A DNA stretch of 64,000 nucleotides from Prevotella sp. (lineage in GTDB: Bacteria > Bacteroidota > Bacteroidia > Bacteroidales > Dysgonomonadaceae): assembly GCA_031285625.1 (NCBI GenBank), contig JAITVV010000011.1, positions 21,644-85,643 of the forward strand, given 5' to 3'. How positions within the stretch are numbered: the first letter of the stretch is position 1; each line of letters opens with the position of its first letter. The notes below the pieces were generated by a model. It worked only from the letters and a program-made list of their open reading frames with translations. It did not search any database and was not told the DNA's origin. Positions 2,736 to 26,621 of this stretch are shown piece by piece. The position numbers and the translations under genes are program-made.

Positions 2736-3935
2736 ATGAATAAACTATATATATTCTTCATTATAATATTGTGTTCTAACATATTATATGCACAAGACAA
2801 ACCTGTATATAAACATTCCGAATTAGACATTATTGTCAACAATGTCAAAGAGCAATATATTCCCGATAAAAGAATAAAAGTTTTTGATGTAAAAGTCGAT
2901 GATAGCAACAGAAGACCAACTCTACAAGGAGTAACTTCCGATGTAACTGCATATAATGAAGTGATCAGACAAGCCAAAGAAGCTTACGGATCGGACTTTG
3001 TAGATAAAATAAAATTATTACCTGAGAGTGACTTGGGAGATAAAACATATGGTGTAATCACTCTATCGGTTGCAGATATACGCGTCGAAGGCAAATTTTC
3101 GGCAGAGATGGCCACTCAGGCTACACTAGGAACCCCAATCAGAATACTGCAAAAAGACAGATGGAGCCGGATACAGACTCCCGACGGATATATAGCATGG
3201 ACACAGGAGATAAACTACCAACCAATGACAAAACCGGAATATGAAAGCTGGAAAAAATCTGAAAAGGTAATATTCACAGACTATTTTGGTTTCTCATATA
3301 AAGAACCGGATACAAAAAGCCAAACTGTATCTGATCTGGTTAGTAATAATATCATGAAACTTGAAGGAGATAGTGGAGACTTTTACAAAGTTTCATATCC
3401 CGACGGCCGTATTGGTTATATCTTAAAAAATCAGAGCAAACCTTACAATGAATGGCTAGCTTCTGTTAACATTACAGGAGATAGTTTTGTACAAAAAGCT
3501 TATACACTGATGGGAATCCCATATGTATGGGGAGGAACATCTGTTAAAGGAATGGACTGTAGCGGGTTTACTAAAACAATAATGCTCATGCATGGCATCA
3601 TACTCATGCGCGACGCCTCACAACAAGCATATACGGGGATTCCTGTAGATATAAGCAAAGGATATAAAAACCTACAAGTAGGAGATCTTATGTTCTTTGG
3701 TAAAAAAGCAGAAAAAGATAAAAAGGAACGTGTACGTCATGTTGCCTTTTATATAGGCAATAATAAATTTATTCATGCTTCGGGATATATCAGAATAAGC
3801 AGCCTAAACCCTGCAGACCCTGATTATGATGAAACAAACACTAAAGAATTTATCAGGGCATCACGTATTATCGGAGCTGTAGATAAGGAAGGATCAGGCA
3901 TCTGGTCTATTTCAGGTAATTCTTTTTACAAATAA
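2736..3935 (+). CDS. NlpC/P60 murein peptide endopeptidase (YkfC-like)
   Basis: The likely start is the ATG at 2736, where a signal peptide begins (MNKLYIFFIIILCSNILYAQ); the frame upstream opens only with a TTG lying inside the predicted promoter. The 399-residue exported protein has two SH3b-like segments (about 110-260) and a C-terminal NlpC/P60 domain with Cys275 (MDCSGF), His335 (RHVAFYIG) and His347 (FIHASG) as the apparent catalytic triad. The architecture matches gamma-D-glutamyl-L-diamino acid endopeptidases such as Bacillus YkfC, which cut L-Ala-D-Glu from freed murein peptides. The dipeptide epimerase follows after 17 bases, exactly the partner expected. Exact substrate preference is inferred. 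Confidence 0.88.
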   Translation: MNKLYIFFIIILCSNILYAQDKPVYKHSELDIIVNNVKEQYIPDKRIKVFDVKVDDSNRRPTLQGVTSDVTAYNEVIRQAKEAYGSDFVDKIKLLPESDLGDKTYGVITLSVADIRVEGKFSAEMATQATLGTPIRILQKDRWSRIQTPDGYIAWTQEINYQPMTKPEYESWKKSEKVIFTDYFGFSYKEPDTKSQTVSDLVSNNIMKLEGDSGDFYKVSYPDGRIGYILKNQSKPYNEWLASVNITGDSFVQKAYTLMGIPYVWGGTSVKGMDCSGFTKTIMLMHGIILMRDASQQAYTGIPVDISKGYKNLQVGDLMFFGKKAEKDKKERVRHVAFYIGNNKFIHASGYIRISSLNPADPDYDETNTKEFIRASRIIGAVDKEGSGIWSISGNSFYK

Positions 3936-3952
3936 ACCTAATACTATAAATC

Positions 3953-5098
3953 ATGCCTCAATCAAGACGGAAATTTCTAAAAGCGGCTGCATTTACAGCC
4001 ATTGGAACAGGAATTTTAGCAGGAAATCCTTTAGAAGCATTTTCCTTGAATAACAAGAAAACAGTTTCTCTGAATAAGAAAATGAAGCTAAGCTTCAAAT
4101 CTTATGATTTACAGTTGCGTCATGTATTCACAATAGCCAATTCATCACGCACCACAACCCCTGTTGTGCTGACAGAAATCACATATGATGGCATAACCGG
4201 CTATGGGGAAGCATCCCTCCCACCCTATTTGGGAGAAACACAGGCCTCCGTAATCGAATTTCTAAAAAAAGTAAATCTGGAACAATTCTCGAGTCCATTC
4301 GAACTGGAAGATATACTTAACTATATAGACAAAATAACAGAAAACAATACTGCTGCAAAAGCATCAATCGACATTGCTTTGCACGATCTGGCAGGTAAAA
4401 TAATGGGACAACCCTGGTATAAAATATGGGGACTTGATAAAGAAAAAACACCGTCTACAACCTTCACAATAGGAATTGATACAGATGAAGTTGTAAAACA
4501 AAAAACAAGAGAAGCTGCCCCATTGTATAATATACTGAAAGTAAAGCTGGGACGTGATAATGATAAGCAGATGATCGAGGCCATACGCAGTGTAACCGAT
4601 AAACCGATTGCTGTAGATGCCAATCAGGGCTGGAAAGATAAACATTATGCTCTGGATATGATAAACTGGCTGAAAGAACGTGGTATAGTCATGGTAGAGC
4701 AACCGATGCCCAAGTATAACCTGGAAGATGCAGCCTGGGTTACAGAGCGGAGTCCATTACCTATATTTGCCGACGAATCATTCCAGCGCTTACACGATGT
4801 ACTGCGGCTAAAAGGGGCATTTACAGGTGTAAATATAAAACTGATGAAATGTACCGGAATGCGCGAAGCCTGGAAAATCCTTACTGTTGCACGTGCCGCC
4901 AATATGCAGGTAATGGTAGGTTGTATGACCGAAACTTCGTGTGCTATATCAGCAGCAACACAGATTTCGCCAGCTGTAGACTGGGCAGACCTGGATGGTA
5001 ATTTACTTATAAGTAACGACTGTTTCAAAGGTGCGACTGTGATAAAAGGCAAACTCCATCTGGATGATACTCCGGGTATTGGTGTTGAGAAGCTTTGA
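3953..5098 (+). CDS. L-Ala-D/L-Glu (dipeptide) epimerase, enolase superfamily
   Basis: This 381-residue protein starts with a twin-arginine type leader (SRRKFLKAAAF). The enolase-superfamily active site is complete: K196-V-K198 (LKVKLG), metal ligands D222 (VDANQGW), E249 (VEQPMP) and D274 (FADESF), the second-face lysine K296 (NIKLMK) and the dipeptide-binding D346-L-D348 (ADLDGN). Such enzymes convert L-Ala-D-Glu to L-Ala-L-Glu so that ordinary peptidases can finish murein peptide degradation. It follows the NlpC/P60 gene by 17 bases, the same pairing as ykfB/ykfC in Bacillus. A Tat leader on this normally cytoplasmic enzyme implies that dipeptide epimerization happens in the periplasm. The next gene has its own promoter. 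Confidence 0.9.
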   Translation: MPQSRRKFLKAAAFTAIGTGILAGNPLEAFSLNNKKTVSLNKKMKLSFKSYDLQLRHVFTIANSSRTTTPVVLTEITYDGITGYGEASLPPYLGETQASVIEFLKKVNLEQFSSPFELEDILNYIDKITENNTAAKASIDIALHDLAGKIMGQPWYKIWGLDKEKTPSTTFTIGIDTDEVVKQKTREAAPLYNILKVKLGRDNDKQMIEAIRSVTDKPIAVDANQGWKDKHYALDMINWLKERGIVMVEQPMPKYNLEDAAWVTERSPLPIFADESFQRLHDVLRLKGAFTGVNIKLMKCTGMREAWKILTVARAANMQVMVGCMTETSCAISAATQISPAVDWADLDGNLLISNDCFKGATVIKGKLHLDDTPGIGVEKL

Positions 5099-5145
5099 TA
5101 ATTTTATTTAGATATAAAGATAGATTCCTGTATTTTATTTTGTTC

Positions 5146-5153
5146 TATCTTTG
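5146..5153 (+). promoter_or_regulatory. -7 box of the BadF-type kinase gene
   Basis: TATCTTTG is a perfect match to TAnnTTTG, 32 bases before the GTG start at 5185. No clear -33 TTTG lies at normal spacing. Confidence 0.55.
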
Positions 5154-5184
5154 CGCATATTTACCATAACTAATATAAAAATAC

Positions 5185-6033
5185 GTGATATTATTAGCTG
5201 AAAGTGGCTCTACAAAAACCGAATGGTGCATGGTTGACAGAAGTGGAATTGCAGAACATTTCTTGTCGGACGGTGTTAATCCTTTTTTCCAAACAAGAAA
5301 AGAGATCAGCCGTTTGATCCGTTTGCAATTGCCACCTATATTCTTTAAGACAAAATTCAGTAACATTTATTTTTATGGTGCAGGTTGCTCCTCCATTGAA
5401 AAGAAAGGTCTTGTAAAGGCATCATTAGAGGCACAATTCAAAACACCATCTATTATCGAAAGTGATTTACTAGGCTCCGCCCGTTCATTGTTTCAGGATG
5501 AAGCAGGCATAGCATGCATTTTAGGCACAGGCTCAAATTCCTGTTTTTATGATGGAAATGAAATCGTTAAGAATGTCAAATCATTAGGATATATACTTGG
5601 TGATGAAGGAAGTGGAGCATCATTAGGCAAAGCCTTTTTATCCGATTGTTTAAAGGGATTGGCACCCAAGGAATTAATAGACCCATTCTATAAGAAATAC
5701 AAGATCGAGCCAGATGAAATAATGGATTACATCTACTCTAAACCATTCCCCAACAAGCTTTTATCAGTCCTTTCTTTTTTCTTATACGAATATCTCGAAC
5801 ACCCTTATGTGAACAATCTCGTTCGCAAGAACTTAAGATCTTTTTTTGAAAGAAATATTCTACAATATGAATATACTGAATATCCGATACGCTTTGTTGG
5901 CTCGGTTGCCAAAATGTATTCATTCATACTGAGGGAAATAGCACAGGACATTGGCATCTATATAGATGTGATAATTGAGAACCCTATAAAGGGGCTGATT
6001 GAATACCACCGCGAAAACGGGCAATTATTATAA
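5185..6033 (+). CDS. BadF/BadG-type amino-sugar kinase (GlcNAc or MurNAc kinase), paralog 1
   Basis: A GTG start gives MILLAESGSTKTEW, the phosphate-1 loop of the ASKHA kinase fold. ILGTGSNSCFYDG (phosphate 2) and GYILGDEGSGASLGK follow, all typical of the 280-residue N-acetylglucosamine / N-acetylmuramic acid kinases of Bacteroidota; 282 residues is full length. The protein is clearly homologous to the kinase at 24243-25103, which sits in the murT-murK-murQ operon. Two kinases in one salvage locus suggest one for GlcNAc and one for MurNAc, this copy being the better GlcNAc candidate because the other adjoins murQ. That division is inference. The gene is cytoplasmic and followed directly by a bidirectional terminator. 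Confidence 0.8.
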   Translation: MILLAESGSTKTEWCMVDRSGIAEHFLSDGVNPFFQTRKEISRLIRLQLPPIFFKTKFSNIYFYGAGCSSIEKKGLVKASLEAQFKTPSIIESDLLGSARSLFQDEAGIACILGTGSNSCFYDGNEIVKNVKSLGYILGDEGSGASLGKAFLSDCLKGLAPKELIDPFYKKYKIEPDEIMDYIYSKPFPNKLLSVLSFFLYEYLEHPYVNNLVRKNLRSFFERNILQYEYTEYPIRFVGSVAKMYSFILREIAQDIGIYIDVIIENPIKGLIEYHRENGQLL

Positions 6034-6038
6034 GATAA

Positions 6039-6066
6039 AAAAGGACACATTTACATGTGTCCTTTT
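6039..6066. terminator. bidirectional rho-independent terminator
   Basis: AAAAGGACACAT and ATGTGTCCTTTT form a perfect 12-bp stem with a 4-base loop. It lies between the convergent kinase (plus) and amidase (minus) genes and has A/T tracts on both sides, so it can serve both. Confidence 0.9.
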
Positions 6067-6085
6067 CAGTTTAGATATCAACCAT

Positions 6086-9000
6086 TTATTTAAATATGAA
6101 TGAAAGAATATTTGACATAAGATCATATCGTTCTTTCTCATCTTTAATTACCTCAAAAGGGAATCCCAATACACATGTCTTATAACTTCCATTATAAGCA
6201 ACACCCGCACTCAGATTATTTTCCGAGTACCTGAATATTGTATAGCTATTCTCGCCCACAGGCTCTATGGCATCAGGAGATTCTACAGCATAGCAATCGG
6301 CATTCAGCTTCGAATGGAACTCGTAGTTTCCTGATAATACAGGAAGTGGAGAGGCAATACATTTCACTTTACCTTCTACAGCAGCCCTGTCAACACGCCA
6401 TTTATATTTCAATATATCAGCAGCAAACTGCTGATCTTCTTTCAATGGGTTTTCAGTATCCCACAAATCAGAGGCTACATAGGCCCCACTAATAAATATA
6501 TTACCTCCCTGCTTACAATATTCAGTGATCTTATTTTGTAATTCTACAGGGAAAGTTTTAAACTCAGCAGGATAAACACCTCTTCCTATTTTTGTTTGTT
6601 TTTGCTTTCCTAATATAAGGTCAACCAGTTTATATGATTTCATATCCACTTTATCAGAAACAATGGCATCGCGGCTCGCTGATACAAAAGAATACCCGGC
6701 ATAGGCAATAGCAGCACCATGAATAGAAGGAAAATCGAATGTATTTCCTGCAACTACCTTTGACTCAAAATTAGCATTACTGGCACCAAATCCGGGAGCA
6801 TCATCATCCATCCAGGGAATAATCCTTCTGAATTCGTACTGGTTACCAATATAATTATACTCTACCTTATCAGGCACACCATGATCTATAAAGTCTAAGA
6901 ATCCTGCAATACTATCTGTAGATGCGAAACTATATGGTGCTGATATACGATCAAAACCATTCACAATCAACACTTGTCCTTTTTCGTTTGATTTACGGCA
7001 AACCGAGAGTATCTCTGAAGGGAAACTCTCACCTCCGTCATTTACAGCAGCTATTTTATAACTATAAATCTTATCTTTTTCTATCGGCAAAATAGCATTG
7101 GATTTACTTACAATCTGTCCATTGTCAAAGTCACCATCACCAATACGGGTATAAATAATATATCTATCCGGCGTTGCTGTCGGTTCCGACACATCATTCA
7201 CAGGAACCCAGTTTAGCTTTACTTGTGTATCACCTGAAAATTCTGCACTGAAAGATGTAACAGGTAATGGTTGTACGACAAAATCATTTCCATATTGATA
7301 AGCCACAAACTTAAGCATCCCCTTATAAATAGATCTGCTAACAGTAAACCTGAAACGTGGATCAAGACCATATTTCATATCAGCAAAATTCTGATGCGAT
7401 AATAGCTCAAGAAGCATAGTAGGCACATTGGGTACACGGGCCTCACTGTATGACCTGTTCCACATATGCCTGCGTGTCCATTCCGGTTCGTATTTTAACC
7501 GTATATCTTTCACAATCTCATCCATAATAATATTAGTGAGATCGCGGGATGCCCAGCGAGACTTACCATTATCAAATATCTCTTCATTATGATGTGTCAT
7601 ATATATACCCAATGTCCCAATAATAGAATCATTAAATGTTGTTCCCGCATCGGTATGAAAGGCCATTGCCAGATCGACCGGAATATTCAACCCATCGCTC
7701 TTAGGTAAAACAGAAGAACCTCCTGCTATATAGTTCACCCAGAAGCCCCGGCTTTGATAGTCATCGGTATAATCATTCTTACTTTCACTCTTATTATAAA
7801 CACTATCCGGTGCCCCAGCCCACTGTAGCCAATATCTGGCTCCTTCGGTATACCGCGGATAACCACTTATTTCCGGTTTATAGTCTATAACAGGAAGCTT
7901 CTTTATATTGTCAGCATCAATAGATTCAGAACTTTTTGCATTATCAGTAACTACACCACTTGAATGAGGTAAGCGGGCAATATTACCCATTCCCCCTCCT
8001 ATCTTTACAGCATCTGCCGTAATTACGCGTCCGGCTTTATTACTTTTATTGCTAAGAACAATCTTTAGATTTTCATTTACTCCTTTGTCAAAAGAGAAAA
8101 AGCCCAGGAATATCCATGTTCCACCACCCATTTTCTGGTTAATACTAAATTCGGTTTTTCCCCCTAAGTGATAAACTGTATATTTGGCATCATCTGCACT
8201 GTTTTTTAAAGTTTTATATGAAATATACACCCCATATTGGCCTTTTTCCGGTATATCGGGAATCCACTCACAAAAGCTTTCATCACCTTTGCTTATTGTT
8301 TTCACCTGACGATAAGAGCCCGATCTGAATGGATTTTCTCCATCCAGATATGACTCTTTCAAATTTGCAAACCCTTCTAGTAAGCCAGCTGTCCAGCTGT
8401 CTTTTCCATTTTCTTCTCTATAAATGGAATTACTTTTAACCTTATCGTTGTCTACTATTATTTCATGTTTTTGAATATCTCTTTCGCGTGGCAATAATAC
8501 ATTTGCCCCTGCATTTTCCAGCATAGGTACTAAATATGGCAATACATAACTTTGCGTATACAAGTCTTCCACCGTTTGCAGTACACGAGCGCGTTGCCAT
8601 TCCCATCGTGCCAGTTTTTGCTCATAATACCATCCATGACTCTGCCACAATGCCAAGTGATGGTTTTCTAATCCTTTCCCGGCTGTATATGGTTTTGATA
8701 AATTCCTAATCAGAGGTTTGTCTAATTTATTCGCGAATAAATCTTTTTTGTTTCGGGCAAATAAAACAAGATCTTCAATCTTTTGAGTATCAGTTATGAG
8801 TTCTAATTTATATTTTTTATATTCAGATGGGAGGATATCCCTTATTCGGGAATAGACATCCTCTACATCCTTTTGATTAACAGGTATATATGACAAATTA
8901 ACTCCGGCAAATAAACTGATTGTTTTCTTTTTTATGTCAACCGAATCTATTTTCACCTTACCGACAGTTACATCTTTATTAGCAAACCCTGTAAGGTAGT

Positions 9001-9109
9001 TTCCTATCTCGGAACGAATATGTTCTGAAATATCCTGTGCTTTTATTTCATGGATTGAAAAACATGAGATAAATAAAATAGAAGTAAGTAAAGCTAAACT
9101 TTTTTTCAT
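6086..9109 (-). CDS. N-acetylmuramoyl-L-alanine amidase-like protein with inserted golvesin C-like domain
   Basis: This exported protein of 1007 residues has the signal peptide MKKSLALLTSILFISCF... ending near KAQ. Residues about 145-215 (LALWQSHGWYYEQK, H158) and 470-620 (AMAFHTDAGT, H485; VPTMLLELLSHQN, E568) look like the two halves of an Amidase_3 zinc fold. They are separated by a golvesin C-terminal-like beta domain at about 240-385. An FN3-like domain (about 612-705) and a large alpha/beta C-terminal region follow. Relatives are often labelled xanthan lyase because of the golvesin domain, but the split amidase and the locus point to cutting the MurNAc-L-Ala bond. It lies 68 bases downstream of susD with a hairpin between. 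The amidase call is motif-based. Confidence 0.72.
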   Translation of the reverse strand: MKKSLALLTSILFISCFSIHEIKAQDISEHIRSEIGNYLTGFANKDVTVGKVKIDSVDIKKKTISLFAGVNLSYIPVNQKDVEDVYSRIRDILPSEYKKYKLELITDTQKIEDLVLFARNKKDLFANKLDKPLIRNLSKPYTAGKGLENHHLALWQSHGWYYEQKLARWEWQRARVLQTVEDLYTQSYVLPYLVPMLENAGANVLLPRERDIQKHEIIVDNDKVKSNSIYREENGKDSWTAGLLEGFANLKESYLDGENPFRSGSYRQVKTISKGDESFCEWIPDIPEKGQYGVYISYKTLKNSADDAKYTVYHLGGKTEFSINQKMGGGTWIFLGFFSFDKGVNENLKIVLSNKSNKAGRVITADAVKIGGGMGNIARLPHSSGVVTDNAKSSESIDADNIKKLPVIDYKPEISGYPRYTEGARYWLQWAGAPDSVYNKSESKNDYTDDYQSRGFWVNYIAGGSSVLPKSDGLNIPVDLAMAFHTDAGTTFNDSIIGTLGIYMTHHNEEIFDNGKSRWASRDLTNIIMDEIVKDIRLKYEPEWTRRHMWNRSYSEARVPNVPTMLLELLSHQNFADMKYGLDPRFRFTVSRSIYKGMLKFVAYQYGNDFVVQPLPVTSFSAEFSGDTQVKLNWVPVNDVSEPTATPDRYIIYTRIGDGDFDNGQIVSKSNAILPIEKDKIYSYKIAAVNDGGESFPSEILSVCRKSNEKGQVLIVNGFDRISAPYSFASTDSIAGFLDFIDHGVPDKVEYNYIGNQYEFRRIIPWMDDDAPGFGASNANFESKVVAGNTFDFPSIHGAAIAYAGYSFVSASRDAIVSDKVDMKSYKLVDLILGKQKQTKIGRGVYPAEFKTFPVELQNKITEYCKQGGNIFISGAYVASDLWDTENPLKEDQQFAADILKYKWRVDRAAVEGKVKCIASPLPVLSGNYEFHSKLNADCYAVESPDAIEPVGENSYTIFRYSENNLSAGVAYNGSYKTCVLGFPFEVIKDEKERYDLMSNILSFIFK

Positions 9110-9126
9110 TGTATATTATTAAAAGA

Positions 9127-9148
9127 ACAGAGGGACGAATCCCTCTGT
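9127..9148 (-). terminator. hairpin between susD and the amidase gene (attenuator-like)
   Basis: ACAGAGGGA and TCCCTCTGT pair perfectly over 9 bp with a 4-base loop. On the minus strand the stem is followed by TTCTTTTAAT, a weak terminator tail. It could set a lower expression of the amidase relative to susC/susD. Confidence 0.6.
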
Positions 9149-9177
9149 AAATATTCTAAAATGAAAAATAACAAAAT

Positions 9178-10659
9178 TTATCTTGGGTTTTGAGTAATGA
9201 TACCATTATTTTTATCAATTTCATCTTGAGGTATAGGCAATATTTCATCTCGATTGGCTACAAATCCTTTAAATAATTGAGGGCCTTTACCAAAACGAAC
9301 CACATCCCAGAAACGGAATCCTTCCATTGCAAGTTCCAGACGTCTTTCTTTCAGAATATCTTCAACTAACTGATCTCCTGATGATGTAATAGCCGGTAAT
9401 CCAACCCTGTCGCGCAACAGTTTCAAATACTTCTTCGCCTCCCCTTCGTTCTTTGTTGCACCTCTGGTACAAGCCTCTGCATAATTTAAATATACCTCAG
9501 CCAAACGGATAAGCTGGATATTCAGTGGATTATTTCTAATTTCTTTAGAGCGTTCACTTGGAGGCAAATAATATTTTTGATTAAAATAACCAGTTCTGTT
9601 ACGTTCCAGTTTCGCAAAATCTTCTGCAGACTCCCATGCTTTCAGGTCATCTTCGGTCAACAAAGTTGCATCTTTTCTCTCTGTATCACCAATTGCATCA
9701 AATGCATCTGCCAGAGCCTGATATGGCTGATTGATTCCGTAACCGTAAGTTACTCCGAACGGCATCATCATCAACACATGGAAATTACCGTTATTACTTG
9801 TTGCAGCCGATTGTGAAGGCGAATCGTAATGATTTATCTCCAGAATAGATTCAGTACTATGCTCTCCAGCCAAAGTAAACTGATAACCATAATCATCTAC
9901 AAGTTTGTAATCACCGGATTCTATTACTTTCAATGCAGCCGTTTTAGCTTCATCAAACTTTTCTTCATACAGATATACTCTGGAAAGCATTGCATAAGCA
10001 GCACCTTGTGTAATACGACCTGCATAATCTGCATAGTTAACTTCAGAGCGACGTGGCAATGCTGCTGCAGCTGCATTCAGGTCAATTTCAATCTGAGCAT
10101 ATACTTCAGCTTTAGGTGTCCGGGGTTTCCCTTTATCCGCAACAGTAGGAGTTGCAGTCAATAAAGGTACATCACCAAAACATTTTACTAATTCGTGATA
10201 GAAATATCCTCTGAGAAAAAGAGCCTCGCCTAGTAATGCATTTTTCTTGTAAACAGAGAATAATGCATCATCCATCTTGTTAATGCCATCTATGGTTTGA
10301 TTAGCCTTATTTATAGCCCTGTAGCATAACATATATCTATTTAATATACGTCCATTATCAGCAGGATAATCGTAAGCTTCCATACGTGCATACCCGGAAA
10401 CGTCGGCATCGGAACCACTATAAGTAGCGTCATCGGATAATATATCACCAAATGCCCACAATGTCCATGTATACCGGTAGTCTTTCATATCTGAATAAGC
10501 TGCGGTCAAAGATTGGAAAGCTTCTTCTTCTGTTTTGAAAAAATTATCGGTAGTAAGGCTTCCTAACTTACTTTTATCTAGGGCATCATCACAGCTATTC
10601 ATCAGGAACATACTGAGTCCGATAAATAAACATAATATTTTATTTGTTTTCATTGTCAT
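9178..10659 (-). CDS. RagB/SusD family nutrient-uptake outer-membrane lipoprotein
   Basis: The 493-residue protein begins with a lipoprotein signal (MKTNKILCLFIGLSMFLMNS then Cys-Asp-Asp) and shows SusD features: an N-terminal NFFKTEEEAFQSLTAAYSDM segment, TPR-like helices, and a C-terminal LKERRLELAMEGFRFWDVVRFG block. SusD proteins cap the SusC channel and bind the ligand at the cell surface. susC lies 12 bases upstream. Given the amidase downstream and the salvage genes around, peptidoglycan fragments are the likely ligand; that is inference from context. Translation may begin at the first or second in-frame ATG (10659 or 10653). Confidence 0.92.
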   Translation of the reverse strand: MTMKTNKILCLFIGLSMFLMNSCDDALDKSKLGSLTTDNFFKTEEEAFQSLTAAYSDMKDYRYTWTLWAFGDILSDDATYSGSDADVSGYARMEAYDYPADNGRILNRYMLCYRAINKANQTIDGINKMDDALFSVYKKNALLGEALFLRGYFYHELVKCFGDVPLLTATPTVADKGKPRTPKAEVYAQIEIDLNAAAAALPRRSEVNYADYAGRITQGAAYAMLSRVYLYEEKFDEAKTAALKVIESGDYKLVDDYGYQFTLAGEHSTESILEINHYDSPSQSAATSNNGNFHVLMMMPFGVTYGYGINQPYQALADAFDAIGDTERKDATLLTEDDLKAWESAEDFAKLERNRTGYFNQKYYLPPSERSKEIRNNPLNIQLIRLAEVYLNYAEACTRGATKNEGEAKKYLKLLRDRVGLPAITSSGDQLVEDILKERRLELAMEGFRFWDVVRFGKGPQLFKGFVANRDEILPIPQDEIDKNNGIITQNPR

Positions 10660-10671
10660 ATTCCTTTTTAA

Positions 10672-13770: not shown

Positions 13771-14023
13771 AATACTTTGTTTATTAATTATTTTGATACT
13801 TTCCCTATTTACTGTGAATTAATAGCACTGAGCTATCATACATTTTATGAGCAGATTCCCGATTCAACAATAAGTACTAAAACATGAGAAGATTTAAAGA
13901 CTAGACTAGACCAGATTCAAAGCTTTTTTTTCATAAGTTCGTTTTATAGAGGTTATACATATTTTGAGAAATGAGTCTTAAACTATTGGAATAATTAAGA
14001 TCGCTATTCGATTTAGAGCTTTA

Positions 14024-14031
14024 CAAATATA
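14024..14031 (-). promoter_or_regulatory. -7 box of the susC operon
   Basis: CAAATATA on the plus strand reads TATATTTG on the minus strand, a perfect TAnnTTTG. It implies a leader of about 250 bases before the susC start at 13770. Confidence 0.5.
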
Positions 14032-14331
14032 AAATGTTTTTATATATCTTTTTAGAGTCATTTAATTATTTTAATATTTATTATATTTAGTTTGTATATT
14101 TTTACATTAATAAAACTATGAATTATATATAAATATCTAATTAAAAGTATTTTAATATACAAATAATAAATACAATAAGAATTATATTTTTATATCATAC
14201 ATATATTTTCACATTTATTAAATACAATATGCATTAAAATTAGAACATAGAAGAACACAGAAGCCTGAAAAGAAATCTATATATAGAAATATTTAGCAAT
14301 AATCAGATTCAATAAATATAAATAATTAAAT

Positions 14332-14351
14332 ATTTGTATATAAATACAAAT
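14332..14351. promoter_or_regulatory. operator-like dyad
   Basis: ATTTGTAT and ATACAAAT form a perfect 8-bp inverted repeat with a 4-base spacer, about 140 bases upstream of the plus-strand -7 box. In such AT-rich DNA it could be chance. Confidence 0.3.
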
Positions 14352-14469
14352 TATTGTTAATTTAATGATTTTAACAAAGTAGAAATTATTCAATTTAAAT
14401 ATATCATCTTATATTTGCTCAATAATCCAACAAAATAAGAACCACATATCATTATAATCTCTAATCTTT

Positions 14470-14477: not shown

Positions 14478-14507
14478 GCAATTAAAAACAAATTAAAGGA
14501 TTAAACT

Positions 14508-15674: not shown

Positions 15675-15699
15675 TCACAATCTAAATAAATAACCAAAA

Positions 15700-17157: not shown

Positions 17158-17181
17158 CAAATTGTAGTTAAACAAGTTTTG

Positions 17182-17229
17182 AAAAAGTGAGAGTCAGAAA
17201 AACTACTCATGATAAGGCTCTCACTTTTT
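17182..17229 (+). terminator. rho-independent terminator
   Basis: AAAAAGTGAGAG and CTCTCACTTTTT pair perfectly over 12 bp around a 24-base loop. It separates the glycosyltransferase gene from the DUF4922 gene, so the latter may need its own promoter or read-through. Confidence 0.8.
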
Positions 17230-17248
17230 GATCTAAACAAAAAAAAGT

Positions 17249-18181: not shown

Positions 18182-18186
18182 TAAAC

Positions 18187-19482: not shown

Positions 19483-19508
19483 GAGTTGTTTAAAATATTT
19501 CCGTTTCT

Positions 19509-19612
19509 TTTGTCATGTTGAACGCAGTGAATTGAAAATCGGCAGAGCGAAGGGGAGCCAAACTCTCGTGTTAATTAGGATCGAGATTCTATGTTACACT
19601 CAGAATGACAAA
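19509..19612 (+). repeat. MITE-like dispersed repeat, copy 2
   Basis: TTTGTCAT (19509-19516) and ATGACAAA (19605-19612) bound a 104-base core nearly identical to 2398-2500. It fills most of the gap between the SpoIID-like gene and ampG. The degenerate AAGAGTTGTTTAAAA at 19481 may be what remains of the outer inverted repeat. Confidence 0.7.
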
Positions 19613-19678
19613 GAAGATAAACTTTAAATAATGTGATATCACTTTTAAGAAAGCCAAAATACAACTAAACATAAAATC

Positions 19679-21550
19679 ATGAAAGAAAATAAGAAATCGC
19701 CGTGGGCATGGATACCGTCACTTTATCTGGCAGAAGGGTTACCATATGTTGCAGTAATGACCATTTCGGTGATCATGTACAAGCGCATGGGTATATCCAA
19801 TACCGATATAGCACTATATACCAGCTGGTTGTACCTACCTTGGGTTATTAAACCATTCTGGAGTCCCTTCGTTGATTTACTGAAAACAAAGCGCTGGTGG
19901 ATTGTAACCATGCAAATACTCATTGGCGCAGGGTTTGCCGGTATAGCATTTACAATACCCCTACCCTTCTTCTTTCAGGCTACTTTAGCATTCTTTTGGC
20001 TATTAGCTTTTAGCTCGGCAACACACGATATTGCTGCCGACGGATTCTATATGTTGGGATTAAATACGAATCAGCAAGCCAAATATGTAGGTATAAGAAG
20101 TACATTTTACCGTGTTGCTACCATTATGGGACAAGGTGTACTTATTATTCTGGCTGGTTTTTTAGAAAGTACCTCAGGGTGTGAACCTGTAAAAATAAAT
20201 ATAGATGCCTCGCCACAATATACACAGTCGACACTAATCTTACCACAAACACCAGATATTGCAGCTCAGGATGTAGAAATTCATTTTATAGTAGACAAAG
20301 ATATTGTGCAGATAGGTACACATGGTGTTGATAAAGACAGTCTGCAGTCTTTTTTAGATAAGGTAATAGCCTTAAACCAGGATAACGGATTTGTGGCAAA
20401 AGAACATACTTCCGATGCAAATATAACTGAAAAGAAAGAAAGCGTATGGACAAGGAATGTATCTAAACCCTTCGGTGACTGGATAAAAAGTAACTTTGGA
20501 GAGAAACGCTATGTTACAGAATCGGAACATACAGGGAATGTTGCTGTTGCTGCAGTAAGACTATCCAAACAGCCAGAAGATAATAAAGAAATGATACTAA
20601 ACACAACCATGAACAGAGGTGATAATAGTATAGCCCTGTTACATGGTGAACGTCTGGCTTTCAACAATACAAACTGGAACAAACCAGCTTATCTTATTTT
20701 CCAGATCGATCCGAAACTAACTACTACCAGTACAGCCGAATATAAAGGACTGTCGGGAAATATACCATTTGCATGGTCTATCACATTCTTTGTATTGGCC
20801 GGATTGTTTATATTCTTTAGTTTCTATCACAGGGTAGTACTCCCTAAACCAGATTCAGACAAGGCTCATGCACATATAACAGCGAAATCTATTTTTACTG
20901 AGTTTGGTCAAACATTCAAAAGTTTCTTTAAGAAACCACAGGCTGCCGCCGCTATATTCTTTATGCTTACCTTCCGCTTTTCAGAAGCGCAATTGCTTAA
21001 ACTCATCAATCCGTTCCTACTAGATTCGAGGGACATCGGAGGGTTAGGTTTAACGACAGGTGAAGTAGGACTTGTATATGGAACAATTGGTATTATAGGG
21101 CTTACATTAGGCGGTATTATCGGAGGTTTTGTTGCTGCCAAAGGCGGACTAAAAAGATGGGTATGGCCTATGACACTAAGCATGTTGCTGACTATCGCCA
21201 CTTTCCTCTATTTGAGCTTCACACAAACAGATAGCCTGATCATCATCAATATTTGCGTATTTATTGAACAATTCGGGTATGGATTCGGATTTACAGCATA
21301 TATGCTATACCTTATCTATTTCTCGGAAGGAACACATAAAACAGCTCATTATGCCTTCTGTACCGGATTTATGGCGTTGGGTATGATGGTTCCGGGTATG
21401 TTTGCCGGATGGCTGCAAGAACAATTAGGATATAACCACTTCTTTATTTGGGTAATGATATGCTCTATTGTTCCTATCATCGCTGTTTCGCTGTTGAAGA
21501 TCGATCCTAATTATGGAAAGGCGAAAGAAGAAACTGGAAATGAACAATAA
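19679..21550 (+). CDS. AmpG-like muropeptide permease (MFS) with large extra domain
   Basis: This 623-residue inner-membrane transporter begins with the AmpG-type WIPSLYLAEGLPYVAVM and has about a dozen hydrophobic segments. Relatives carry GlcNAc-anhydroMurNAc peptides into the cytoplasm. It is much longer than the approximately 490-residue E. coli AmpG because of about 195 hydrophilic residues (165-362) between membrane segments, probably a periplasmic domain; this includes GCEPVKINIDASPQYTQSTL and a region predicted to be beta-rich. The role of the insert is unknown, perhaps docking with the periplasmic hydrolases. It lies between the SpoIID-like gene and the second namZ-like gene, with MITE-like repeats in both gaps. 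Confidence 0.85.
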   Translation: MKENKKSPWAWIPSLYLAEGLPYVAVMTISVIMYKRMGISNTDIALYTSWLYLPWVIKPFWSPFVDLLKTKRWWIVTMQILIGAGFAGIAFTIPLPFFFQATLAFFWLLAFSSATHDIAADGFYMLGLNTNQQAKYVGIRSTFYRVATIMGQGVLIILAGFLESTSGCEPVKINIDASPQYTQSTLILPQTPDIAAQDVEIHFIVDKDIVQIGTHGVDKDSLQSFLDKVIALNQDNGFVAKEHTSDANITEKKESVWTRNVSKPFGDWIKSNFGEKRYVTESEHTGNVAVAAVRLSKQPEDNKEMILNTTMNRGDNSIALLHGERLAFNNTNWNKPAYLIFQIDPKLTTTSTAEYKGLSGNIPFAWSITFFVLAGLFIFFSFYHRVVLPKPDSDKAHAHITAKSIFTEFGQTFKSFFKKPQAAAAIFFMLTFRFSEAQLLKLINPFLLDSRDIGGLGLTTGEVGLVYGTIGIIGLTLGGIIGGFVAAKGGLKRWVWPMTLSMLLTIATFLYLSFTQTDSLIIINICVFIEQFGYGFGFTAYMLYLIYFSEGTHKTAHYAFCTGFMALGMMVPGMFAGWLQEQLGYNHFFIWVMICSIVPIIAVSLLKIDPNYGKAKEETGNEQ

Positions 21551-21554
21551 ATAT

Positions 21555-21627
21555 TTTGTCATGCTGAGGTAACGAAGCATCTCGTCTCCTTTCAGGCAAG
21601 AAATTTCACTCCGTTCAAAATGACAAA
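21555..21627 (+). repeat. MITE-like dispersed repeat, short variant (copy 3)
   Basis: TTTGTCATGCTGAGG at the left and CGTTCAAAATGACAAA at the right give the same ends as the other copies, but the interior is shorter (73 bases) and different. Its right end supplies an ATG that is in frame with the downstream namZ-like gene, which could mislead start prediction. Confidence 0.6.
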
Positions 21628-21640
21628 AAATAAAAAAGTT

Positions 21641-22876
21641 ATGAAAAAAACATCAATTATATTATCTGTATTCTGCTTACTCTCATTCACCTGTTTTGCA
21701 CAAAAGATAAAAATCAAAACAGGGATTGAGGTACTGAAAGAACAGAACTTTAAAGTACTGGAAGGCAAGCGTGTAGGACTTATCACCAATCCTACCGGGG
21801 TAGATAATAATATGAAATCTACAATTGACATCTTACACGAAGCCAGAAATGTGCAATTAGTAGCCCTTTTCGCTCCCGAACATGGAGTGAGAGGTGATGC
21901 CCATGCCGGAGACCATGTGGATAATGTAAAAGATCCAAACACCGGACTCCCGGTATACTCATTACATGGAAAAACTAAAATTCCCACTGCAGATATGCTC
22001 AAGGGAATTGATGCTTTGGTGTATGATATTCAGGATATAGGTTGCCGCTCATTTACCTATGTAAGCACAATGGGGCTTGGGATGCAGGCCGCTGCTGAAA
22101 ACAATATCGAATTTATTGTCCTCGACAGGCCAAACCCTCTTGGAGGATTAAAGGTAGAAGGTGGCTTGGTTGACGAAAAATTTATTTCCTTTGTAAGCCA
22201 ATTCAAAATACCTTATGTATACGGATTGACTTGTGGCGAACTGGCTCAGTTGCTTAACGGAGAAAATATGCTCAGTAAACAATGTAAGCTACAAGTAGTA
22301 AAAATGAAAAGTTGGAAACGCAAAATGACATATGAACAAACAGGACTGCAATGGATCCCATCGTCTCCGCATATCCCCCAGCCCATTTCTGCAGTGATGT
22401 ATCCTGTATCGGGCATTTTGGGTGAACTAGGTTATATGTCTATTGGTGTTGGATATACAATCCCGTTTCAGATGTTTGCTACCGAATGGATAAAAGCGGA
22501 CGAACTGGCAAACAGTCTCAACAGACTACGTTTACCCGGAATTCATTTCCGGCCTCTCTACATCAAACCATTCTACTCTGTGGGGCAAGGTAAACAACTG
22601 GAAGGGGTACAGGTACATATAATGGATTATGAAAAAGCCCGCTTATCTGAAATACAATTCTATGTTATGCAGGAAGTAGCACGGTTATACCCTGATAAAG
22701 CAGTATTTGATAATGCAAATGATAAACGCTACAGAATGTTTGATCAGGTGTGCGGCAGTGATTATGTCAGGCTTACTTTTGCAAAGAATAATAAATTCGA
22801 AGATATTAAAGATTTTTGGTACAAAGAAACCGAACCATTTAAAAAGATATCAAAGAAATACTATCTGTATAAATAA
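21641..22876 (+). CDS. exo-beta-N-acetylmuramidase, NamZ/DUF1343 (GH171) family, paralog 2
   Basis: The ATG at 21641 is preferred because it begins a good signal peptide (MKKTSIILSVFCLLSFTCFAQ); the in-frame ATG at 21620 belongs to the repeat element. The mature protein shows the family blocks VGLITNPTG, APEHGVRGDAHAGDH, VYDIQDIGCRSFTYV and LDRPNPLGG, and 411 residues is a normal length. It should release MurNAc from the non-reducing end of peptide-free peptidoglycan fragments in the periplasm. Downstream lie murT, murK and murQ, which import, phosphorylate and cleave MurNAc, so product and pathway match. It probably shares a transcript with ampG, as only 90 bases containing the repeat separate them. 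Confidence 0.9.
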   Translation: MKKTSIILSVFCLLSFTCFAQKIKIKTGIEVLKEQNFKVLEGKRVGLITNPTGVDNNMKSTIDILHEARNVQLVALFAPEHGVRGDAHAGDHVDNVKDPNTGLPVYSLHGKTKIPTADMLKGIDALVYDIQDIGCRSFTYVSTMGLGMQAAAENNIEFIVLDRPNPLGGLKVEGGLVDEKFISFVSQFKIPYVYGLTCGELAQLLNGENMLSKQCKLQVVKMKSWKRKMTYEQTGLQWIPSSPHIPQPISAVMYPVSGILGELGYMSIGVGYTIPFQMFATEWIKADELANSLNRLRLPGIHFRPLYIKPFYSVGQGKQLEGVQVHIMDYEKARLSEIQFYVMQEVARLYPDKAVFDNANDKRYRMFDQVCGSDYVRLTFAKNNKFEDIKDFWYKETEPFKKISKKYYLYK

Positions 22877-22926
22877 CTGAACACAATTTTATCTATATAA
22901 TGCAGATAACAAGTAGATTATCCGAT

Positions 22927-22979
22927 AAAAAAGGTTACAATAAAAAGTAACTGAAATGTGTTACTTTTGTCACCTTTTA
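22927..22979. repeat. 55-bp palindromic element, copy B
   Basis: AAAAGGTTACAATAAAAAGT and GTTACTTTTGTCACCTTTT form an imperfect dyad with a loop of about 8 bases. It lies about 95 bases upstream of murT. Its right half is almost identical to that of 28371-28427 and to the reverse complement of the left half of 2257-2311. Confidence 0.6.
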
Positions 22980-23073
22980 ATATATAATAATATGATTATA
23001 AGCAATATAACAATTTAATAATTGTGTTACCTTTTATTAAAATACAGATCCTAACGAATAAAGAAATAGTATT

Positions 23074-24246
23074 ATGACCCAGAAACCCAATAATAATAGA
23101 TTATTATCTCTTGATATACTAAGGGGAATCACCATTGCCGGCATGATAATGGTAAACAATCCTGGATCATGGAATTATGTATATGAGCCGTTAAGGCATG
23201 CTGCATGGAACGGGCTTACCCCTACCGACTTGGTTTTTCCATTCTTCATGTTCATTATGGGGATATCTACCTTTATTTCTTTACGGAAATTCAATTTCGA
23301 GTTTAGTAAGCCTACCTTATTCAAAATAATAAAAAGAACGATTATTATATTCCTTATTGGTCTTGGTTTAGGTTGGCTATCTCTTTCATTCAGAACATTC
23401 GGTAACCTATCCGGTGAAGAATTAGGGTTCTTCGAAAGATTCTTCAAAGCCATTACCGATTTTGAACATATACGCATACTGGGTGTAATGCAACGCCTAG
23501 CCATTACATACGGAGCTACAGCCTTGATAGCTATTCTGGTTAAGCATAAATATATACCTTATATTATTGTGGTTACACTATTCGGCTATTTCTTGCTCCT
23601 GCTATTTGGAAACGGATTCGAATTTAGTGAAGATAATATTATTTCTGTTCTCGACAGAGCTATACTTGGAACGAATCATATGTACAAGGATAGTGGTCTG
23701 GCAATTGATCCGGAAGGATTATTAAGTACAATTCCGGCCATCTGTCATGTATTGATAGGATTCTGTTGCGGAGAACTGCTATTGTCAACAAAGGATAATC
23801 ACGAACGGATACAACGACTATTTATAATTGGTGCTATAATGACATTTCTTGGTTTTCTACTTAGTTATGGTTGCCCGATCAATAAAAAGATATGGTCACC
23901 GACATTTGTTATAGCTACATGCGGACTGGCAGCTACACTATTAGCTTTATTAATATGGATAATAGACATCAAGGGATATAAAAAATGGAGTGTATTCTTT
24001 GAATCATTCGGTGTGAACCCTCTGTTTATATATGTAGCAGCAGGCGTATTCTCGGTATTATTAGCCAATATTCAATTCACATATTATGGAAACTTAATAA
24101 GTATTAAAGATTTCGCATATCAAAAATGTATACATCCACTTTTCGGAAATTATTTAGGATCATTGGTGTATGCATTATTATTTGTCGGATTCAACTGGGT
24201 GATAGGTAATATATTGTATAAAAAGAAAATCTATATAAAGATATGA
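23074..24246 (+). CDS. murT: MurNAc transporter MurT-like membrane protein (DUF5009/HGSNAT-related)
   Basis: This 390-residue polytopic protein starts RLLSLDILRGITIAGMIMVNNPG and carries NGLTPTDLVFPFFMFIMGIS, the signatures of the DUF5009 / heparan-alpha-glucosaminide acetyltransferase-like family. About ten hydrophobic segments follow. In Tannerella forsythia the homologous gene, in the same order murT-murK-murQ, was shown to be the inner-membrane MurNAc transporter, so the same role is assigned here by family and synteny. The stop codon overlaps the start of murK (ATGA), indicating translational coupling. The palindromic element and a TACCTTTT box (23028-23035) upstream suggest its own promoter. 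An acyltransferase activity cannot be excluded from sequence. Confidence 0.85.
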   Translation: MTQKPNNNRLLSLDILRGITIAGMIMVNNPGSWNYVYEPLRHAAWNGLTPTDLVFPFFMFIMGISTFISLRKFNFEFSKPTLFKIIKRTIIIFLIGLGLGWLSLSFRTFGNLSGEELGFFERFFKAITDFEHIRILGVMQRLAITYGATALIAILVKHKYIPYIIVVTLFGYFLLLLFGNGFEFSEDNIISVLDRAILGTNHMYKDSGLAIDPEGLLSTIPAICHVLIGFCCGELLLSTKDNHERIQRLFIIGAIMTFLGFLLSYGCPINKKIWSPTFVIATCGLAATLLALLIWIIDIKGYKKWSVFFESFGVNPLFIYVAAGVFSVLLANIQFTYYGNLISIKDFAYQKCIHPLFGNYLGSLVYALLFVGFNWVIGNILYKKKIYIKI

Positions 24247-25103
24247 TATTACTAGCGGACGGAGGATCTACCAAAGTCGATTGGCGTTTGGTAGATGGTA
24301 GCAAAGAGATAAAACAGATTTCCACAAAAGGGTCTAATCCGTTTTTTCGTACGAGAGAAGATATTAGTGACGAAATAAAGGCTGTTATAAAACCGGCTGT
24401 GGAAAACTATGTAATCGATGCTGTATTCTTTTTTGGAGCAGGGTGTGCCACTCCTGAAAAAAGTATGGTAATAAAGAATGCAATAGCCGATAATATAAAA
24501 ACTCCCTATATAGAAGTTGACAGTGATCTGCTTGCTGCGGCAAAAGGCCTCTGTGGTACAAATGAAGGCATAGCCTGTATCCTGGGTACAGGATCAAACT
24601 CGTGCTTCTATGACGGAATAGCCATAAAAGAAAATATCTCACCTTTGGGTTATATACTTGGGGATGAGGGAAGCGGTGCTGTCCTGGGCAGACTGTTTAT
24701 AGGAGCATGTTTGAAAAACCAACTAACAAAAGGACTTAAAGAGAAGTTCCTCAAGGAGTTTGATCTTACACCGGCTACTATTCTGGATACTGTATATAAA
24801 CAACCAATGGCTAACCGCTTTCTGGCAAGTCTCTCTCCTTTCCTGATAGAGAACATACAGGACGAAAGCGTCTATAATCTTGTCTATAATGCATTTAAAG
24901 ATTTCTTTGTAAAGAACGTAATGCAATATGACTATAAAAATAATGATGTACATTTTACAGGATCTGTGGCATACCACTACAAAGACATATTACATAAAGT
25001 AGGTTCTGACATCGGCATCAAAATAGGTACTATTGCACAATCGCCAATGGAAGGCCTTATCAGATACTATGCAGGAGAATGTCAAACAATATATAACAGA
25101 TAA
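24243..25103 (+). CDS. murK: MurNAc kinase MurK (BadF/BadG type), paralog 2
   Basis: This 286-residue ASKHA-fold kinase has MILLADGGSTKVDW, CILGTGSNSCFYDG and GYILGDEGSGAVLG, and aligns along its length with the kinase at 5185-6033. It overlaps the end of murT by 4 bases and is followed after 4 bases by murQ, the arrangement of the T. forsythia murTKQ operon, where MurK makes MurNAc 6-phosphate in the cytoplasm. Family enzymes often also accept GlcNAc. The annotation therefore rests on synteny plus motifs. Confidence 0.9.
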   Translation: MILLADGGSTKVDWRLVDGSKEIKQISTKGSNPFFRTREDISDEIKAVIKPAVENYVIDAVFFFGAGCATPEKSMVIKNAIADNIKTPYIEVDSDLLAAAKGLCGTNEGIACILGTGSNSCFYDGIAIKENISPLGYILGDEGSGAVLGRLFIGACLKNQLTKGLKEKFLKEFDLTPATILDTVYKQPMANRFLASLSPFLIENIQDESVYNLVYNAFKDFFVKNVMQYDYKNNDVHFTGSVAYHYKDILHKVGSDIGIKIGTIAQSPMEGLIRYYAGECQTIYNR

Positions 25104-25107
25104 TAAA

Positions 25108-25932
25108 ATGACTTTTGTAAAAATCACAGAACAACCTTCACTATATGATAATCTGGAAGATAAATCCGTTTTGGAGTTACTGACAGATATAAACAACGAA
25201 GATAAGAAAGTCGCACTTGCAGTAGAAAAAGCAATACCACAGATAGAAAAGTTGGTTTTACAAATAGTTCCACGGATACAGCAGGGAGGGCGTATTTTCT
25301 ATATGGGAGCAGGAACCAGCGGTCGTCTCGGTGTGCTTGATGCATCAGAGATTCCACCTACATTTGGCATGCCCAATACGCTGGTTATAGGACTAATAGC
25401 CGGAGGCGATACTGCATTACGCAATCCGGTGGAAAAAGCTGAAGATAATATGGAAACCGGATGGAAAGAATTAGAAGCTCATAATATAAATGAGAAAGAT
25501 ACTGTGATAGGTATTGCGGCTTCAGGTACTACCCCGTATGTAGTAGGAGTTCTCCGTGAAGCCCGCAAACATGGGATACTCACAGCATCTATATCGAGTA
25601 ATCCCGATTCCCCGATTGCACAGGAAGCAGAGATTCCTATCGAGATGATTGTCGGTCCGGAGTTTGTTACAGGTAGTTCTCGTATGAAGTCGGGTACAGG
25701 GCAGAAAATGATACTGAATATGATAACTACATCAACAATGATAAAACTCGGCCGTGTAAAGGGTAACCGCATGGTTAACATGCAATTATCCAATGCAAAA
25801 TTGGTAGACAGAGGTACGCGTATGGTATCAGAAGAACTCGGTCTTGATTACGATCAGGCCAACAGGTTATTACTATTACACGGCTCAGTAAAAAAGGCTG
25901 TTGATGCATACAAAGCAGACAACAAGCAGTGA
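25108..25932 (+). CDS. murQ: N-acetylmuramic acid 6-phosphate etherase
   Basis: The ATG at 25108, 4 bases after murK, gives a 274-residue protein beginning MTFVKITEQPSLYDNLEDKS, the normal N-terminus; the longer frame that starts inside murK is rejected. The SIS-domain signature GAGTSGRLGVLDASEIPPTF is intact, as are SGTTPYVVG and SSRMKSGTGQKMILNM. MurQ splits the D-lactyl ether of MurNAc 6-phosphate to give GlcNAc 6-phosphate and lactate, the last dedicated step of MurNAc catabolism. It closes the murT-murK-murQ operon and is followed at once by a terminator. Confidence 0.96.
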   Translation: MTFVKITEQPSLYDNLEDKSVLELLTDINNEDKKVALAVEKAIPQIEKLVLQIVPRIQQGGRIFYMGAGTSGRLGVLDASEIPPTFGMPNTLVIGLIAGGDTALRNPVEKAEDNMETGWKELEAHNINEKDTVIGIAASGTTPYVVGVLREARKHGILTASISSNPDSPIAQEAEIPIEMIVGPEFVTGSSRMKSGTGQKMILNMITTSTMIKLGRVKGNRMVNMQLSNAKLVDRGTRMVSEELGLDYDQANRLLLLHGSVKKAVDAYKADNKQ

Positions 25933-25936
25933 AAGG

Positions 25937-25969
25937 AAAAGGAATAGTCAGATATGGTTATTCCTTTTT
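25937..25969. terminator. bidirectional rho-independent terminator after murQ
   Basis: AAAAGGAATA and TATTCCTTTT pair over 10 bp around a loop of about 12 bases, between the convergent murQ and HAD genes, with T and A tracts on either side. Confidence 0.85.
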
Positions 25970-26621
25970 AACTAAATAAAAGATCAGATAATCCTTTAAT
26001 GTCCTCGACAATATAAGTAGCTCCTGCGAGATTCAATTCATCATAATCACCATATCCGTATAATACACCAACAGAGTCAATTCCTACATTTTTAGCTCCG
26101 ATAATGTCATGTTTACGGTCTCCTATCATTATCGTTTGTGAGAGATCAGTTATATTATTTATTTGCAGGACATGCTCTATTACAGCCGTTTTTGTATTAC
26201 GTGAATTGTCTAAGCTACTGCCACCTATAAATGTAAAGTAATTTATCAGATTAAAGTGGTCAAGTATTCTTTCGGCAAAAACCGTCGGTTTTGAGGTAGC
26301 CAGATAGAGTTTAAACCCAGATGAGTCCAGATACTCAAGAATGTCCTTCATTCCCTCATAAAGATAGTTCTCGTACAACCCTATTTCTGAGTATCTTTCG
26401 CGGTATTTTGCCAATGCAATTTCTATTTGGTCATCGGATAAGCTATAAAATTCCCTGAACGAATCTTTTAAGGGAGGTCCGATAAAAGGACACAGATCGG
26501 TCAGATCATTTACATCGATACCTAAATGGTTCAAAGCAAACTCTACAGATTTTGTGATTCCAATCATAGGATCGGTAATAGTACCATCCAGATCAAAGAG
26601 AATATGTTTATAATTTCCCAT
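25968..26621 (-). CDS. HAD-family phosphatase (phosphoglycolate phosphatase-like)
   Basis: The ATG at 26621 gives MGNYKHILFDLDGTITDP, with the HAD nucleophile motif DLDGT right at the start. The frame is open upstream but carries no HAD sequence there. The 217-residue protein also has YLATSKPTVFAERIL (motif II/III region) and IMIGDRKHDIIGAKNVGI (motif IV). Family members dephosphorylate small phosphoesters such as 2-phosphoglycolate. Next to murQ it could be a MurNAc 6-phosphate phosphatase like MupP, which is also a PGP-type HAD protein, but nothing in the sequence settles this. It is convergent to murQ, so it is not in that operon. Confidence 0.85.
   Translation of the reverse strand: MGNYKHILFDLDGTITDPMIGITKSVEFALNHLGIDVNDLTDLCPFIGPPLKDSFREFYSLSDDQIEIALAKYRERYSEIGLYENYLYEGMKDILEYLDSSGFKLYLATSKPTVFAERILDHFNLINYFTFIGGSSLDNSRNTKTAVIEHVLQINNITDLSQTIMIGDRKHDIIGAKNVGIDSVGVLYGYGDYDELNLAGATYIVEDIKGLSDLLFS

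Follow-up and report, generated by a model that had tools for sequence, protein, structure and literature searches.

Among described systems, the closest to the locus reported here is the nine-gene operon of Tannerella forsythia (Tanf_08345-08385: xanthan lyase, gtf, gtf, lytB, ampG, ybbC, murT, murK and murQ), which forms one transcript by reverse-transcription PCR, is activated by GppX, and encodes an AmpG whose function was demonstrated in E. coli (PMC5388701). A second kinase, K1058, is encoded directly upstream of this operon (PMC10465942), and MurK is a kinase of N-acetylmuramic acid (MurNAc; PMC5790795). Another order offers a ~27-kb locus in a Urechidicola symbiont of mussels, with two susCD pairs and genes mostly of murein metabolism: murQ, nagB, ampG, an L-Ala-D/L-Glu epimerase, an amidase, dacA, and glycoside hydrolases (GH) of families 3, 18, 171 and 10; the passages of that report on the locus make no substrate test and leave the source of the substrate open (PMC10199937). 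Here we describe a locus in a 64,000-nucleotide stretch of DNA (the window; positions 21,644 to 85,643 of contig JAITVV010000011.1, assembly GCA_031285625.1) from a 4.8-Mb genome of the genus Dysgonomonas. Its salvage system is real and largely known already, and is coupled to an outer-membrane importer, SusC/SusD; we consider it probable that the locus serves peptidoglycan scavenging, with SusC/SusD importing soluble fragments. Gene order and the one published parallel, the Urechidicola locus, lend good support to a putative role of the importer in peptidoglycan uptake.

The core of the locus is already known, because positions 14508-25932, bar the first gene, follow the label order of the nine-gene operon (PMC5388701); an earlier sequence-only reading of the window had pointed to murein recycling by these families in other bacteria and to murTKQ in T. 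forsythia. The features are as follows.

2736 to 3935, + strand: NlpC/P60 endopeptidase with SH3 domains and a signal peptide (3npf, 335 bits; leader judged by eye)
3953 to 5098, + strand: dipeptide-epimerase-type enzyme of the enolase superfamily with a Tat-like leader (3iji, 584 bits)
5185 to 6033, + strand: sugar kinase nearest T. forsythia K1058 (sequence search)
6041 to 6067, no strand: terminator-like inverted repeat, flanked by the kinase and amidase genes, which converge on it (sequence judged by eye)
6086 to 9109, - strand: divergent Amidase_3-like protein of 1007 aa with Golvesin_C, FN3 and a C-terminal GATase/ThuA-like part
9178 to 10659, - strand: SusD-type outer-membrane lipoprotein, clade A
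10672 to 13770, - strand: SusC-type TonB-dependent transporter, clade A
14508 to 15674, + strand: NamZ-family exo-muramidase homologue 1 (profile match)
15700 to 17157, + strand: GT2-domain protein (profile match)
17249 to 18181, + strand: DUF4922 protein with an Ap4A-phosphorylase/GalT-like fold
18187 to 19482, + strand: SpoIID/LytB-domain protein, no signal peptide seen
19679 to 21550, + strand: AmpG-family permease (profile match)
21620 to 22876, + strand: NamZ-family exo-muramidase homologue 2 (profile match)
23074 to 24246, + strand: NagX/DUF5009-like membrane protein, at the position of T. forsythia murT
24243 to 25103, + strand: MurK-type BadF kinase (profile match)
25072 to 25932, + strand: MurQ, MurNAc-6-phosphate etherase (TIGR00274, 316 bits, cut-off 302; start codon picked downstream of the open reading frame (ORF) start at 25033)
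26796 to 28085, + strand: 3-keto-disaccharide-hydrolase-family protein with a lipoprotein-like leader, a possible extra member of the locus

From GT2 to MurQ the labels run in the same order as in T. forsythia (Fig. 2 legend, PMC5388701), and a kinase likewise lies upstream of the run (PMC10465942); the window differs in that a NamZ gene precedes GT2 and the amidase gene is inverted along with SusCD. The two 'gtf' genes and lytB that precede ampG have their counterparts, in order, in GT2, DUF4922 and SpoIID/LytB, and we infer from position that DUF4922 is the second 'gtf'. The AmpG-family permease is followed by NamZ, a MurK-type kinase and MurQ, as in the operon. This salvage core is thus common to the window and T. 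forsythia, and SusC-SusD-amidase and NlpC-epimerase-kinase (2736-6033) are additions to it. The locus likely comprises three transcription units, since the terminator-like inverted repeat separates the convergent kinase and amidase genes.

Most of this gene content had been proposed from sequence alone and proved real, though some labels needed correction, 'murT' above all. Profile and sequence searches bear out NlpC/P60, SusC/SusD, MurQ and the two NamZ-type muramidases, which are the sole two PF07075 matches in the genome. Both kinase assignments hold: that at 5185-6033 scores 372 bits to 8ow7 (K1058) vs 247 bits to 8ow9 (MurK), codes tied to these proteins via PMC10465942, and that at 24243-25103 is BadF-type. 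The Tat-leader dipeptide epimerase stands as an enzyme of that superfamily type, with NCBIfam matches below cut-off (DgcA, 222 bits against 400; L-Ala-D/L-Glu epimerase, 156 against 343), and is the host genome's one epimerase match at E<=1e-40. For the permease the family assignment stood, but its NCBIfam score (158 bits) falls short of the cut-off of 350. The earlier reading was silent on GT2 (15700), DUF4922 (17249) and SpoIID/LytB (18187), which lie in the same salvage run.

The importer is tied to this core by gene order across species. SusC and SusD are adjacent, 12 bp apart, as in Sus-type loci, and a 33-row tree joins the window's SusC to those of two other Dysgonomonas genomes (G002 and G010) and a Paludibacter genome in a four-row clade (clade A, support 100/100); peptidoglycan genes are linked to the pair in all of them. 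In G002, NlpC, epimerase, kinase, SusC, SusD, amidase, GT2, DUF4922 and SpoIID genes share one strand, on which AmpG, NamZ, MurK, MurQ and the keto-disaccharide hydrolase follow, without the NagX-like gene. G010, whose contig ends at SusC, resembles G002 from there onward, with SusC-SusD-amidase co-directional with GT2-MurQ. In Paludibacter, SusC, SusD, NlpC and epimerase genes stand in direct succession; the epimerase is that genome's sole match at the same threshold, and its amidase lies on a separate contig. Perhaps, then, the pair imports the peptide part alone, or short peptides generally, like RagAB, considering that in Paludibacter it is coupled to just NlpC and epimerase, with the amidase elsewhere. 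We judge this unlikely: in Dysgonomonas SusCD is coupled to the amidase and to sugar-side genes, and SusC scores 658 bits to the 'SusC homolog' 8aa4 vs 316 bits to RagA.

The synteny search that the sequence-only reading had proposed extends this picture, as SusCD pairs of three clades recur at the salvage loci of relatives. The amidase-like protein occurs in 32 of 61 genomes, chiefly in the window's family, and we compared 30 loci, those of the window and of 29 of the 31 other amidase-bearing genomes, leaving out the weak matches of G045 and G048. A SusC or SusD gene lies upstream of the amidase in an unbroken same-strand run (gaps up to 700 bp) at 17 of them (16/29 plus the window); in spot-check regions (20 regions of 20 kb from 8 genomes, chosen non-randomly at round coordinates), the same rule picked out 25 of 285 genes. 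SusC proteins from these loci belong to clades A, B and C. Clade B (14 rows, 100/100) often comes with GH9, polysaccharide deacetylase, GHL10, ROK kinase, MFS, SIS and creatininase-family genes, and in G015 its surroundings include GH20. Clade C (6 rows, 95/92) sits within a 7-row set (100/100) together with one termite-type Bacteroidales SusC from other surroundings; in G003 and G019 a clade-C pair heads a run of NamZ, SSF symporter, MurK, MurQ, beta-lactamase-like, phosphoesterase, amidase, NlpC and epimerase genes. G001 and G009 hold a B pair and a C pair within a single locus.

In G033, G034 and G035, an ECF sigma gene, FecR and SusC-SusD separate a DHFR gene from the amidase, and in G026, G028, G031 and G032 DHFR comes immediately before the amidase. 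This pattern suggests that an importer cassette was gained or lost while the core stayed fixed. In layout the window itself matches the clade-B species G017, G014 and G021 (NamZ divergent, kinase convergent), but it carries a clade-A pair where they have the clade-B cassette. What is new here, as far as gene order can tell, is that, across a family, one salvage core appears to work with SusCD pairs that are exchanged. Two further observations belong beside these loci. The ECF sigma/FecR/SusCD cassette, present in L044, L047 and L048 and absent from L045, L046, L049 and L050, offers a natural before-and-after comparison. The ROK kinase, MFS, SIS-domain and creatininase-family cassette with GH9 (L030, L031, L034, L035, L036, L104 and L106; GH20 in L104) adjoins wall-salvage genes or clade-B SusCD, and may represent an uncharacterised amino-sugar pathway.

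Several observations weigh against an importer of peptidoglycan fragments. The SusC-SusD-amidase genes (6086-13770) lie on the strand opposite to the salvage core in the window. Being related, the 30 loci do not count as independent cases, so we claim no p-value, and 13 of them have no SusC/SusD in the run; among these, G018 has a pair on the same strand past a gap of ~1 kb, a clade-B pair lies downstream in G015 and G024 and at the other salvage locus in G029, and contig ends truncate several. A clade-A SusD above 70% identity was found in 3 of the 61 relatives, and a clade-A-like SusD at E<=1e-75 is rare in a sample of the order (4 of 393 genomes, three candidates scored per genome; G002, G010 and Paludibacter are not among the hits). 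Two of those four, G301 and G421 (SusD at 39%), have GH31/oxidoreductase and GH8 genes as neighbours, with their epimerases elsewhere, and because of these neighbours the peptidoglycan link of clade A is limited to near relatives. G051 (SusD at 43%) can perhaps be added to them: its sole epimerase match lies ~4 kb from SusD, on the opposite strand, and a SusC-like ORF (26%) and a DUF4249 protein intervene. The nearest solved SusC/SusD relatives bear no peptidoglycan label. No regulator family was recognised by profile scan among the 20 proteins of 757-31600 (ORFs of >=100 aa), which leaves room for an unlinked regulator; in relatives, ECF sigma and FecR adjoin SusC in G034 and G035, and in G033, where FecR was assigned by similarity cluster. 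Neither a surface glycan-binding lipoprotein nor a surface endo-hydrolase was recognised in the block from leaders judged by eye and the profile scan. The label 'murT' is doubtful, and the amidase scores below the threshold of its family, with 19.1 bits and E 0.0014 against Amidase_3 (Pfam cut-off 27), and its AlphaFold model has a mean pLDDT of 69, falling below 50 at 156-185, 479-509 and 544-579. Motif counts in the 737-bp divergent region, considered for promoters, were set aside.

Some of these points would suit a pair that imports an unrelated glycan and stands here by chance in a SusCD-rich genome. SusC genes are indeed dense (9 in 400 kb of the spot-check regions), and nearness to one means little, because 67 of the 285 spot-check genes lie within 10 kb of a SusC; we therefore rejected closeness alone as evidence. 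The GH31 and GH8 surroundings of the next SusD relatives, and the opposed strands in the window, fit such a placement too. We nonetheless hold chance to be improbable, given that clade A adjoins the NlpC and epimerase genes of Paludibacter and runs co-directionally with salvage genes in G002 and G010, and that between 2736 and 25932 the profile scan matched no glycoside-hydrolase family besides NamZ.

With Sus-type loci of Bacteroidota the window's block shares a SusC/SusD pair next to a dedicated degradation pathway; it differs from them in that neither a linked regulator nor a surface hydrolase or glycan-binding lipoprotein was recognised. The earlier view of a polysaccharide-utilization-like unit is partly supported, by gene order, the recurrence of SusCD and the Urechidicola locus. 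Because no such regulator, hydrolase or lipoprotein was recognised in the block, the importer would take fragments already solubilised by others, by lysozyme or by the cell's own turnover. Reading substrate, direction of flow and reactions from gene families, order, conservation and importer exchange, we propose that SusC/SusD bring soluble fragments through the outer membrane and that the Golvesin-containing amidase would take the stem peptides off the sugar chain in the periplasm, the NlpC/P60 enzyme would cleave the peptide behind D-Glu, and the Tat-exported epimerase would convert L-Ala-D-Glu into L-Ala-L-Glu. The two NamZ enzymes would set MurNAc free in the periplasm, AmpG would move sugar fragments inwards, and from these GlcNAc-6-phosphate and D-lactate would arise through the kinases and MurQ, with the SusCD pair as an exchangeable add-on to the core shared with T. 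forsythia. The reactions assigned are the activities of the families, as generally known and as given in the T. forsythia papers. Leaders judged by eye would place the amidase, NlpC and both NamZ proteins in the periplasm, and the epimerase there via a Tat-like motif; none was seen on GT2, DUF4922 or SpoIID.

Whose peptidoglycan is taken up is a separate matter. That the locus chiefly recovers leaked products of the cell's own wall turnover, rather than foreign peptidoglycan, is compatible with an importer of fragments, and although we lean away from it, it deserves consideration: the block has no recognised surface hydrolase or glycan-binding lipoprotein, and in T. forsythia the core operon serves recycling. 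On the other hand, repeated replacement of the importer suits foraging better, and recovery need not be compulsory where MurNAc can be made de novo. T. forsythia is without MurA and MurB; the host genome has both, adjacent to one another and elsewhere in the genome, so that outside MurNAc should be unneeded, unlike in T. forsythia. We accordingly rejected obligate MurNAc salvage of the T. forsythia kind, and with both enzymes present the salvage is probably nutritional.

The 1007-aa protein merits a closer look. Although its own profile match is sub-threshold, it can be described as a divergent Amidase_3-like protein, which is how far the earlier label 'amidase' stands: all 19 of 19 aligned homologues match Amidase_3 at E<=10 (best 8.7e-5), and H158, E181, H485 and E568 are invariant across them, candidates for the zinc-binding and catalytic residues of the family. 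Profile comparison of its C-terminal half with Amidase_3 proteins (6 of 8 intended references were used) gave a 46-column match round a conserved Glu (probability 54%, E 1.2e-4), and the N-terminal half gave no match. Foldseek and VIA-align recovered Golvesin, FN3 and the C-terminal GATase-like part; no amidase was among the matches listed, which excludes nothing given the low confidence of the catalytic part of the model. The amidase leader in the window has a Cys, and the homologues compared share none at a fixed place (by eye). The 'xanthan lyase' that opens the T. forsythia operon is most likely a homologue of this protein, because the window protein has as its best Protein Data Bank match a xanthan lyase, through the Golvesin part, and because a homologue precedes GT2 in nine genomes (G025, G028, G030, G031, G032, G033, G034, G035 and G056; one small ORF intervenes in G031 and G032). 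That T. forsythia gene is a candidate for the strong periplasmic amidase activity inferred for T. forsythia, in a passage that names no gene (PMC7670621).

Less can be said for 'murT'. The protein at 23074-24246 matches NagX/DUF5009 with scores below the cut-offs, and we dropped 'murT' as an established identity; no gene lies between NamZ2 and MurK in G002 or G010, and the relevant passages of PMC5790795 give two differing superfamilies for MurT. The protein might acetylate amino sugars instead of transporting MurNAc. Within the salvage run, DUF4922 has an invariant HxHxQ on its Ap4A-phosphorylase/GalT-like fold, and SpoIID/LytB sits there without a visible signal peptide. The profile search also matched a HAD phosphatase. 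Beyond the core, nine other Dysgonomonas genomes (G002, G003, G005, G010, G014, G015, G017, G018 and G019) likewise keep a 3-keto-disaccharide-hydrolase-family gene close to murQ, namZ2 or ampG, and a second, unrelated SusD/SusC pair occupies 31610-36550, near a family-less ORF (30740-31600) and a TPR/LuxR-like gene (37613-39295).

How does this compare with what has been published? In the portions of the T. forsythia papers that we consulted, a word search met no SusC or SusD in PMC5388701 and PMC10465942, and 'sus' just in 'susceptibility' in PMC7670621 and PMC5790795; 'outer membrane' appears once in PMC5388701, in a legend abbreviation, and once in PMC7670621, in a reference title. No SusCD-linked peptidoglycan locus is described in the parts consulted of PMC6987092 and PMC10877868. 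The Urechidicola locus, by its Fig. 5B legend, is alike in its SusCD pairs, murQ, ampG, epimerase, amidase (called ampD) and GH171; it differs in belonging to Flavobacteriaceae, in listing GH3, GH18, GH10, nagB and a deoR regulator, and in listing no GT2-DUF4922-SpoIID run, the comparison being one of gene lists (PMC10199937). It is an independent case in another order and supports the importer reading. The NlpC/P60-epimerase pair is adjacent in G033, G034 and G301 as well, but with no SusC/SusD next to it in those stretches. The Caulobacter GlcNAc cluster also ties a TonB-dependent receptor to amino-sugar catabolism; its substrate, though, is GlcNAc, and the portion of the report consulted names neither SusD nor MurNAc genes (PMC13046382). 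Calling dedicated peptidoglycan loci with a SusC/SusD pair little described was therefore fair, but they are not undescribed, given the T. forsythia core (PMC5388701) and the murein-centred SusCD locus of PMC10199937, and because of the latter we make no claim to a first of its kind.

The passage of larger peptidoglycan fragments through the outer membrane of Bacteroidota goes unaddressed in those parts of the T. forsythia papers. The cassettes differ in their sets of GH9, deacetylase, GHL10, GH20 and sugar-kinase genes, and we tentatively raise the idea, which goes beyond the importer reading, that Dysgonomonadaceae forage peptidoglycan, as they do other glycans, via a modular locus in which a fixed core accepts SusCD cassettes, each matched to a different wall chemistry or source. 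If SusCD pairs do import muropeptides, peptidoglycan would join the glycans foraged by Bacteroidota, and this would bear on the muropeptide levels sensed by hosts and on the turnover of dead bacteria.

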